64,000 nt of DNA from Desulfofustis limnaeus (GTDB lineage Bacteria; Desulfobacterota; Desulfobulbia; Desulfobulbales; Desulfocapsaceae). Shown in pieces: positions 29,828 through 31,494 of the stretch. The stretch is from positions 1,178,001-1,242,000 of the forward strand of contig NZ_AP025516.1 of assembly GCF_023169885.1 (NCBI RefSeq), given 5' to 3'. Each line of letters begins with the position of its first letter. The stretch's first letter is position 1. The translations under genes and the position numbers were made by a program. The notes beneath the pieces were generated by a model, which worked only from the letters and a program-made list of their open reading frames with translations, was not told the origin of the DNA and did not search any database.

Positions 29828-30256
29828 TCAGATGGTAAGTTCTTCCGGCTGCTGAGCTTCATGAGGATGCTCGGTGCCGGTGTAGACTTTCAGTTTCTTC
29901 AATTGCGCCCGCCCCATCTTGTTTTTCGGCAGCATACCTTTCACCGCCTCCAAGATCAGGTTGGTGGGATGTTTGGTCAGCATTTCCTTGGCTGTGGTCT
30001 CCTTGAGCCCACCCATGTAACCGGTGTGCCGGTAATAGACCTTGTCGTCCCATTTGGCGCCGGTCAGACGGATGTGCTCGGCGTTGGTGACGATGATGAA
30101 ATCCCCGTTATCGATGAACGGTGAAAAAGTCGGCTTGTGCTTACCGCGCAGACGGAAGGCGATCTCTGAGGCAAGACGACCCAAAATCTTGTCCTTGGCG
30201 TCAACAACGTACCATTTCTTTTCTATCTCTCGAACAGGAGCAAGATAGGTTTTCAT
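29828..30256 (-). CDS. rplM: 50S ribosomal protein L13 (uL13)
   Basis: Early-assembling large-subunit protein; 142 residues. It starts [20 protein letters not shown], with [18 protein letters not shown] and [16 protein letters not shown] as family signatures. The ATG at 30256 is chosen; the open frame upstream runs into tRNA and terminator sequence. Confidence 0.97.
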
Positions 30257-30296
30257 GTGGTCCTCAACAATCGAATGGTAATAGAATGCTTTGAAT

Positions 30297-30326
30297 AAAA
30301 AAAGGTTCGAGCAGAGCCGAACCTTT
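30297..30326 (-). terminator. Rho-independent terminator after tRNA-Gly
   Basis: On the minus strand a 9-bp perfect stem (30326-30318 with 30309-30301; AAAGGTTCG/CGAACCTTT) and an 8-nt loop. It is followed by seven T (30303-30297). It lies 11 nt beyond the tRNA 3' end and only about 40 nt before rplM, so rplM needs either read-through or a promoter overlapping this hairpin; I could not identify one. Confidence 0.8.
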
Positions 30327-30337
30327 GATAAGCAGGC

Positions 30338-30412
<75 letters not shown>

Positions 30413-30439
30413 TCTGTTTCATAATCAAAACAGGAGAAC

Positions 30440-30467
30440 ATTTAATAAACGGCCAAGCAAAAGTCAA
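30440..30467 (-). promoter_or_regulatory. Candidate promoter of tRNA-Gly
   Basis: On the minus strand: TTGACT (30467-30462), 16-nt spacer, TTAAAT (30445-30440). Transcription would begin about 20 nt before the tRNA 5' end. Confidence 0.5.
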
Positions 30468-30540
30468 CAGAAAAAGAACCGGTCATCGGTTCCACCGGTC
30501 ATTTCTCCGCTTGGCCCTTTCTTCATGGCAAGTGGGTTTT

Positions 30541-30726
30541 CGGGAATGCTTGGCTCTGCCGAAAGCTGCATCGTGAAGGCCCGGCAGGTTTCAGAATCAG
30601 GCCCGAAGGGTTGCGGACATGACGTCCGCAACCGGCGGTCAGGCCATGGATGGCCTGTCTGCCGGCCTCTGAGACCAGCCGATCAGGCCGCAACGCAGCA
30701 GCTGAAGGCAGAGCCAAGCATTCCCG
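30541..30726. repeat. Long nested inverted repeat, possible structured RNA or mobile element
   Basis: Outer arms of 29 nt: 30541-30569 and 30698-30726 pair over 20 bp, then a 3-nt mismatch, then 6 bp. The left arm begins CGGGAATGCTTGGCTCTGCC. Three smaller dyads lie inside. GGTTTCAGA (30588-30596) pairs with TCTGAGACC (30668-30676) with one G-U. A 10-bp hairpin at 30609-30633 (GGTTGCGGAC, 5-nt loop) and a hairpin at 30640-30657 (CAGGCCAT/ATGGCCTG) are nested within that. The result is a long rod with two terminal hairpins. No transposase is nearby. Confidence 0.7.
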
Positions 30727-30891
30727 GCGGAGCGCAGCGCCTGATTCGTGGCGGGGGAAACGACCATCACCGGAGACAGAAAAAAAGGTGGTGTTCACCA
30801 CTACTTTTATGATACATAGAAACTACTTGGAAAATCTCGAGAAACGTCTTTCGGCAGGCGGTGCCGTGCCGTGTCAGCATCAGGAAACATC

Positions 30892-31494
30892 ATGACCGAT
30901 ACCTCCCTTGAGCGTCGCGGAGCCGTGACGCGAACTACGGCAGAAACCGATATCCAGATGACCTTCACCTTGGACGGGTCGGGACGTGCACAGGTGGCCA
31001 CCGGCGTCGGTTTTCTTGACCACATGCTGACCCTGTTTACGGTCCACGGTTTTTTCGATCTGCAGGTGCAGGCCAGCGGTGATATTCACGTGGACGACCA
31101 TCACAGCGTCGAGGACGTGGGGATCAGTCTTGGCCAGGCGTTCGCCCAGGCCGTCGGCGGACGGCAAGGTATCCGCCGTTACGGCATGAGTCTGGTGCCC
31201 ATGGACGAAACCCTGGCCCGGGTCGTGGTTGACGTGTCCAATCGCCCCTTTCTCCATTTTCAGGTGGAACTCCCCGATCAAAAGGTGGGGACCTTCGACA
31301 CCTGTCTGGTCAAAGAATTCATGCGGGCGTTCAGCCACCATGCCGGACTGACTCTGCATATTGACTTATTGCACGGAGACAACGCGCACCACATCATCGA
31401 GGCTATTTTCAAAGCCCTGGGGCGGGCACTTAACGAGGCGACCGAAAAAAAAGAGGGACTCCGGGGTGCGTTGTCTTCCAAAGGCTGTTTATGA
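30892..31494 (+). CDS. hisB: Imidazoleglycerol-phosphate dehydratase
   Basis: Dehydrates imidazoleglycerol phosphate in histidine synthesis; Mn-dependent. The product is 200 residues, the monofunctional form. It carries the metal-binding His/Glu repeats: GFLDHMLTLF, VDDHHSVEDVGI, FSHHAGLTLHI and HHIIEAIFKALGRAL. AGGAA lies 7 nt before the ATG at 30892. It is alone here, with no other his gene nearby. Confidence 0.96.
   Translation: MTDTSLERRGAVTRTTAETDIQMTFTLDGSGRAQVATGVGFLDHMLTLFTVHGFFDLQVQASGDIHVDDHHSVEDVGISLGQAFAQAVGGRQGIRRYGMSLVPMDETLARVVVDVSNRPFLHFQVELPDQKVGTFDTCLVKEFMRAFSHHAGLTLHIDLLHGDNAHHIIEAIFKALGRALNEATEKKEGLRGALSSKGCL

Follow-up and report, generated by a model that had tools for sequence, protein, structure and literature searches.

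A nested inverted repeat upstream of hisB in Desulfofustis limnaeus belongs to a dispersed repeat family resembling TwoAYGGAY RNA

The 186-nt nested inverted repeat that precedes hisB in the window, the 64,000-nt stretch of the Desulfofustis limnaeus genome analyzed here, is one of approximately 60 genomic copies, which rules out a single-copy oddity. On balance, we favor the interpretation that it belongs to a dispersed repeat encoding a structured RNA akin to TwoAYGGAY (Rfam RF01731), whose paired GGA hairpins would be bound by CsrA.

The hisB-proximal element and its copies in Desulfofustis

The element comprises a 20-bp outer stem, a 3 × 3 GAA/GAA internal loop, a 6-bp stem, an inner stem with bulges and a pair of hairpins at the tip, arranged as follows (MFE, minimum free energy; A2, an alignment of 5 own and 24 of the 52 D. 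glycolicus copies, all from the better-scoring end).

30541–30726, + strand: whole element, sub-family A copy L001 (+ denotes the strand on which the GGA loop appears when folded)
30541–30560, + strand: 5′ outer arm, 20 nt, pairing with 30707–30726 (MFE structure); helix 1 in A2, with two-sided changes in 16/18 pairs
30561–30563, + strand: 5′ half of the 3 × 3 purine internal loop, GAA here and GGA in most copies (MFE structure)
30564–30608, + strand: 5′ side of the inner bulged stem, GCTGCATCGTGAAGGCC (sequence and MFE structure)
30609–30633, + strand: hairpin 1, 10 bp; the family loop GGA is TGA at 30620–30622 in the window copy (MFE structure, alignment)
30634–30663, + strand: hairpin 2, loop AUGGAU intact, GGA at 30648–30650 (MFE structure, alignment)
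30664–30703, + strand: 3′ side of the inner bulged stem, AGGCCGCAACGCAGCAGC (sequence and MFE structure)
30704–30706, + strand: 3′ half of the 3 × 3 purine internal loop (MFE structure)
30707–30726, + strand: 3′ outer arm (MFE structure and A2 covariation)

A sequence-only reading of this DNA had described a nested inverted repeat with a long rod-like fold, two internal hairpins and outer arms interrupted by a 3-nt bulge. The rod was confirmed: the + strand folds with an MFE of −135.4 kcal/mol, whereas shuffled sequences average −72.3 (sd 4.2; z −15.1), and none of 200 shuffles folded as low. Both hairpins and the arms are present, but the bulge proved to be the symmetric internal loop at 30561–30563 / 30704–30706. 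The minus strand is likewise stable (−122.4 kcal/mol, z −11.0), and folding as single-stranded DNA gave a z of −12.7. The inverted-repeat arms (30541–30581 and 30686–30726) span 41 nt each, are 80% complementary and are separated by a 104-nt spacer; no other inverted repeat of at least 12 nt was reported within 30341–30926. In A2, the first and third bases of the internal loop are invariant in 29/29 copies on the 5′ side, with G in the middle in 26/29, and also in 29/29 on the 3′ side, with a middle G in 25/29. Close forms of the inner bulged-stem motif (GCTGCATCGTGAAGGCC) occur in elements of D. glycolicus (G001), G003 and G011.

The element is flanked on one side by tRNA-Gly (30338–30412, minus strand), where the ribosomal protein L13/S9 genes also lie, and on the other by hisB (plus strand, ATG at 30892); neighboring genes were named by eye from their translations. 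As the sequence-only reading had stated, no transposase ORF was seen among the translations of these neighbors. Within 30200–31000 no sigma-70-like promoter was detected, and neither a T-run 3′ of the rod nor a target-site duplication around the window copy was found. A protein-coding interpretation was rejected, as the ORFs crossing 30541–30726 are short overlaps only, and so was a known Rfam riboregulator before hisB, since nothing in the window except tRNA scored above cut-off. A separate second hairpin lies just 5′ of the element at 30450–30515 (GGCCAAGC...GCTTGGCC); judged by eye, D. glycolicus does not have it in that form.

Covariance model R1, built from 39 copies, produced one strong match in the window, in agreement with the earlier view that the element is single-copy there; this match scored 148.7 bits at 30559–30713, the copy itself being part of the model's building set. 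The genome-wide search proposed in that reading recovered about 60 copies in the own genome and more in D. glycolicus. A BLAST search of the 4.23-Mb own genome with the 186-nt sequence yielded 46 matches and 38 places at E ≤ 1.1e-7, including the query itself; R1 yielded 60 matches at E < 1e-3 among a total of 79 at E ≤ 1. Across 58 genomes (D. limnaeus and relatives), R1 matched 10 at E ≤ 0.01, with at least 52 copies in the own genome, at least 52 in D. glycolicus (same genus), 22 in G011, 8 in G055 (another family), 7 in G003 and 3 in G036; G019, G025, G045 and G047 had one match each, those in G045 and G047 being weak (0.004–0.006) and apparently unrelated. Alignment A1 contains 39 of the 40 own loci then in hand (all but L040), with the weaker model matches excluded.

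The copies fall into two sub-families that have a core in common. Sub-family A, represented by the window copy and its nearest copies L002–L005 (79–90% identical), consists of bare rods without terminal repeats. Sub-family B, which includes most of L006–L040, is typically 264 bp long and has the ends GGTTCATCCG.../...CGGATGAACC. An end pair could be defined at 34/40 loci, and at least 7 of 8 flanking bases matched in 14/34 of these compared to 20/1122 swapped pairs; the rule is lenient and also admitted the A copies L001, L002 and L005 (0–2 flank matches). With inverted ends and 8-bp flank duplications in excess of the swapped control, sub-family B evidently moved as a miniature inverted-repeat transposable element (MITE). 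The window copy and L002–L005 do not have these MITE traits, and no convincing target duplications were found in the D. glycolicus, Marinobacter, Lachnospiraceae, Solimonas and Syntrophomonadaceae groups. A pattern scan for the B end gave 32 matches, with none for the reversed control. A search for an autonomous partner through the terminal inverted repeats, covering the end at L215 and, with partial annotation, the other lone ends, revealed no transposase; a candidate at L215 was discarded as a truncated end beside dinB with no transposase. Relative to the outer arms, the core of the 40 loci points one way in 17, the other way in 5 and is ambiguous in 18, the A copies among them. The five loci with the reversed core are the B copies L017, L018, L026, L029 and L032.

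D. glycolicus shows the same gene order, from L13 through tRNA-Gly to hisB (whose protein is 71% identical), and R1 at E ≤ 0.1 detected no element between tRNA-Gly and hisB (locus L302). This difference may represent either a gain in D. limnaeus or a loss in D. glycolicus.

Compensatory change, strand asymmetry and GGA loops

The compensatory changes between copies that the sequence-only reading had suggested looking for are abundant. With the L002 structure imposed on A2, 93.5% of cells paired and 33/70 pairs changed on both sides, compared to 14.5 (sd 2.0) in shuffles, none of 500 of which reached 33. Two-sided cells numbered 120 versus 30.9 in the shuffles, which are uncorrected for kinship of the copies. 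Sliding the partners by 1–3 columns left just 7–13 two-sided pairs. Helix 5 is the weakest, with 73% of its cells paired. In the A1 consensus fold, 17/36 pairs showed two-sided changes.

We then compared G-U with A-C mismatches on the GGA strand (GU/AC), which are expected at equal frequency if only double-stranded DNA matters. The A2 counts were 64/7 cells (27/7 distinct) for pairs of the plus fold, 36/8 (19/8 distinct) for pairs of the minus fold, and 35/6 cells (18/6 distinct, p = 0.02) for pairs called from both strands. D. glycolicus alone gave 47/5 for the plus fold, 28/5 for the minus fold and 26/3 for both-strand pairs (15/3 distinct, p = 0.008). Full-length B copies gave 50/13, 20/40 and 6/4, respectively, and the B core, tested without nine rows (L001–L005 and L036–L039), gave 29/16, 7/13 and 6/9; because the test leans towards the strand used for calling pairs, sub-family B has no real G-U excess. 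Counts in both-strand pairs were 17/5 for Marinobacter, 12/8 for Solimonas, 10/2 for Syntrophomonadaceae and 7/9 for Lachnospiraceae, for which a count of 12/10 cells likewise showed no excess. An arms-only comparison that used no fold, carried out on copies over a score limit (19/19, 24/32 and 28/29), gave 44/15 for D. glycolicus, and 23/34 and 45/39 for the long outer arms of Lachnospiraceae. Strand-specific selection is thus seen in the sub-family of the window copy and is absent from sub-family B and from Lachnospiraceae. An excess of G-U over A-C shows which strand folds, without telling RNA from single-stranded DNA; given that G-T is tolerated in single-stranded DNA too, RNA is the likely folded strand, short of proof. 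The earlier proposal of a non-autonomous mobile element or a structured RNA therefore finds support in both its halves, the former from the MITE anatomy of sub-family B and the latter from the compensation and strand-specific G-U excess of sub-family A.

The GGA of the tip loops was changed in 4/234 cells of the 39 own copies, compared to 323/2816 other unpaired cells (p = 7e-8) and 232/2798 paired cells (p = 6e-5), while in hairpin 2 of the same copies the base before GGA was changed in 18/39 and the base after it in 9/39. The corresponding counts were 2/204 versus 242/2458 other unpaired and 103/2438 paired cells for B copies alone, and 4/174 versus 142/1156 for A2 (p = 1e-5); the copies were recovered by searches that take in the hairpins, which biases the sample towards kept loops. 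Both GGA loops are intact in 35/39 own copies and 25/29 A2 copies. The window copy is an exception, with UGA in hairpin 1; this damaged copy, in which a single GGA loop is left, is probably a family member that is weak or dying. In G055, the stems differ (GUGAC..GUCAC and CCCGC..GCGGG) and the loops are the same: GGA is kept in 6/7 resolved hairpin-1 loops and 6/6 hairpin-2 loops of its 8 copies, as found with a search model that holds GGA loops. No GGA hairpins were present in the tips at the three G011 loci examined (L066, L072 and L078). These loci, together with L247 of G011 and L058 of G036, carry the bulged-stem motif of the family (GCTGCATCGCGGAGGCC...GGCCGAAGAGCAGCAGC in L066). As the G011/G036 elements keep this stem while the examined tips have no GGA hairpins, the bulged-stem motif may have a separate role.

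Related elements and csrA in other bacteria

The closest described RNA is TwoAYGGAY, with which the repeat family shares a long stem and two GGA-loop tip hairpins closed by GGACA../..GUCC and GCC../..GGC. Of the two AYGGAY-type loops of this RNA, the window copy has the AUGGAU of hairpin 2, whereas hairpin 1 has UGA. The window copy scored 40.8 bits against RF01731, below the gathering cut-off of 43, and matched model positions 46–112 only; its sister copy L005 scored 44.5 bits over the full length (model 1–168) and was the only one of 20 loci from D. limnaeus, D. glycolicus, G003, G055 and G011 to exceed the cut-off. TwoAYGGAY was first reported from human gut, gamma-Proteobacteria and Clostridiales, according to the available text of PMC2864571; PMC4333381 lists its function as unknown, predicts CsrA binding from motif matches and describes tandem G-A internal loops in its stem. 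The outer G and A of the Desulfofustis 3 × 3 loop are invariant on both strands in all 29 A2 copies. The available parts of PMC2864571, PMC4333381, PMC11701678 and PMC11661157 contain no description of TwoAYGGAY as a dispersed repeat, and a literature search that lay mostly outside subscription journals turned up no paper on dispersed repeats of the TwoAYGGAY type or with CsrA binding.

A two-hairpin pattern scanned across genome contigs identified at least 120 stretches containing 130 matches, including stretches from Marinobacter, Solimonas, Lachnospiraceae, Syntrophomonadaceae, Desulfosporosinus and Nitrospirae. For 100/130 matches the enclosing pairs number 15 or more, a measure without a shuffled control that 3/5 Streptomyces matches reach too; all five Streptomyces matches are inside predicted ORFs and look like chance. 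Among 18 pattern-found loci from other genomes, six exceeded the RF01731 cut-off (L084, L089, L091, L100, L107 and L110), with eight matches of 50–135 bits, the Lachnospiraceae loci reaching 86–135 bits. Similar many-copy hairpins are present in distant bacterial groups. A phage or plasmid element was rejected for the copies tested: the window copy had no match in phages, and plasmids gave none for the two copies searched there, an A copy from D. glycolicus and a B copy. The pattern also had 0 matches in viral contigs, a result that says little because an altered control pattern likewise gave 0. Two or three two-hairpin units per locus were observed at L083, L095, L102, L167, L168 and L172, in metagenome-assembled genomes (MAGs) of Desulfobulbales and gammaproteobacterial type; their spacing is mostly approximately 51 bp (1.3 kb at L102), and several lie within predicted ORFs.

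The own genome contains one csrA gene. csrA was also found in 43/50 tested genomes with the two-hairpin pattern, out of 68 such genomes, with 2 of the 5 Streptomyces included. The seven without it are two Streptomyces, Paraprevotella (L137), a Bacteroidales MAG (L143), L182 and the MAGs of L098 and L144; L137 and L182 are inside a predicted ORF, L143 has few enclosing pairs, and L098 and L144 look real. RF01731 occurs in 21/150 genomes of the family of G073 (a Lachnospiraceae MAG containing L100), with at least 17 copies in the richest genome. Within this family, csrA exceeded the cut-off in 21/21 genomes with RF01731 compared to 59/129 without (p = 5e-7, uncorrected for kinship), and flagellin was present in 21/21 compared to 61/129 (likewise uncorrected). 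Because csrA and flagellin mark almost the same set of genomes, the co-occurrence does not single out CsrA. Twelve CsrA-family matches, ten over cut-off and several partial, were observed in the Acidiferrobacterales MAG CAMYII010000070.1 (L168, G098), which also has tandem GGA hairpins.

The Lachnospiraceae copies carry further arms. In 19/19 RF01731 copies examined from six genomes, arms of 22–93 nt extend outside the model and are 79–100% self-complementary, and their best match to other loci scores 15–25, equal to the shuffle level (20–27). An origin of these arms by flanking duplication appeared likely at first, from L110, and was then doubted: in G193 the variable arms sit between conserved outer ends and are thus part of the element. 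That the Lachnospiraceae arms vary in sequence yet remain paired, and show no surplus of G-U, suggests that one arm is copied from the other in DNA. Many copies at L303–L312, L107 and L110 are paired in inverted orientation, at distances of a few hundred bases.

Alternative explanations and significance

CsrA recognizes the motif A-N-GGA-N within hairpin loops. Under the favored reading, the + strand would be transcribed, and an intact copy would hold one CsrA dimer on its pair of GGA hairpins, approximately 30 nt apart; paired GGA hairpins for a CsrA dimer are described in the available text of PMC4333381. The long rod would hold both hairpins in place and shield the RNA. The copies together might then act as a scattered CsrA decoy or bring nearby transcripts under CsrA. 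In sub-family B, this module appears to be moved by a transposase in trans. The CsrA-sponge sRNAs CsrB, CsrC, RsmY and RsmZ likewise present GGA in paired hairpin loops, as the accessible part of PMC4333381 describes, but a genome has two to four such genes, every one with many GGA (PMC11882849), in contrast to the present elements, which are scattered in dozens of copies, carry two tip GGA apiece and, for the window copy, show no promoter-like site. ERIC and Correia/NEMIS elements, as presented in the accessible part of PMC2229807, resemble our elements in being short, non-coding, dispersed MITEs with inverted ends and a rod-like RNA, and sub-family B adds the target duplications; the Desulfofustis elements differ in their tip module with kept GGA, in arms that diverge yet pair, and in related modules in several phyla.

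The strongest points against the favored reading are the lack of orientation bias in the own genome, the flagellin confounding, and the examined G011 tips, which have no GGA hairpins although the elements keep the bulged stem. The first of these, together with the terminal inverted repeats and 8-bp duplications of sub-family B, fits a pure DNA parasite, that is, a MITE palindrome that serves transposition or arose by template switching, with functionless loops inherited from recent common copies. Such a parasite would also account for the missing GU/AC asymmetry in the both-strand pairs of sub-family B (6/9 core, 6/4 full length) and for the Lachnospiraceae arms, which are locus-specific, self-complementary in 19/19 copies and free of G-U excess, as palindrome making at the DNA level predicts. 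We nevertheless regard this explanation as rather unlikely, since it does not fit the D. glycolicus asymmetry (GU 47 vs AC 5, and 26 vs 3 in both-strand pairs), the GGA kept while neighboring N positions vary freely, in sub-family B as well, the recurrence of these loops on other stems in G055, or copies in several phyla with csrA in 43/50 tested genomes.

A role in RNA without CsrA is a further, doubtful candidate, in which the rods would act at 3′ ends or in spacers, in mRNA processing, stability or transcription ending, along the lines suggested for ERIC and Correia elements. Gene context was determined with a home-made codon-usage gene finder. In Marinobacter, 13/14 copies follow a same-strand gene, and the 29 stronger D. 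glycolicus A copies (neighbor strands ++9, −−2, +−10 and −+8) have 0/29 in ORFs and lie 9 times sense and 2 times antisense between co-directional genes; MITE RNAs that act on neighboring mRNAs are described in the available text of PMC2229807. This preference recedes to 9 vs 6 when the 11 weaker D. glycolicus copies (−−4, −+4, +−2 and +?1) are added to make 40, and the own copies show no bias in orientation to neighboring genes (++7, −−9, +−11 and −+15 at 46/53 loci, with 2 in predicted ORFs and 2 with a neighbor missing; the other 7 had no anchor and were dropped). Also at odds with this role are the absence of a T-run past the window rod and the kept GGA loops, which it leaves unexplained.

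REPINs are dispersed intergenic hairpins, sometimes in inverted pairs, and in both respects our elements are similar. A third alternative is that an HUH (Y1) transposase of the REP/RAYT type recognizes the hairpins and that the copies spread as REPIN-like units. The own genome indeed carries 11 Y1 genes (G000:C1, L042–L051) in sets of 5 (151 aa) and 6 (178 aa), one of them approximately 300 bp from a B copy (L024/L048), and inverted element pairs a few hundred bases apart occur in Lachnospiraceae and G011. Y1 genes are, however, no more common in genomes with RF01731 (10/21 vs 77/129, p = 0.34), a result that largely refutes the link, and none was found in 11/21 RF01731 Lachnospiraceae genomes, some with at least 14 copies. 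The B copies carry 8-bp duplications, and to our knowledge Y1 enzymes make no 8-bp target duplications; the Desulfofustis elements are also much longer than REPINs. We consider this explanation very improbable and rejected it.

Returning to the CsrA reading, its broadest form is conceivable and offered tentatively. A mobile family of CsrA decoys, built on a module with the TwoAYGGAY fold, would be present in dozens of copies per genome in several phyla, carried on varied DNA rods that in Desulfofustis include a MITE, and would load the genome with CsrA sites. The pool of free CsrA would then be set by repeats and not by one or two sRNA genes, and the arms would change fast yet stay paired, through a DNA-level process in Lachnospiraceae and with selection on the folded strand in Desulfofustis. 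As a dispersed repeat that is MITE-borne in one lineage, has kept GGA loops and co-occurs with csrA, TwoAYGGAY acquires a candidate function that is directly testable. Should CsrA not be involved, there would still be palindromic repeats in many phyla, with arms free in sequence but paired, to be explained. The family suggests that a global RNA-binding regulator can have its level set by repeats, or its control extended by them to new genes.
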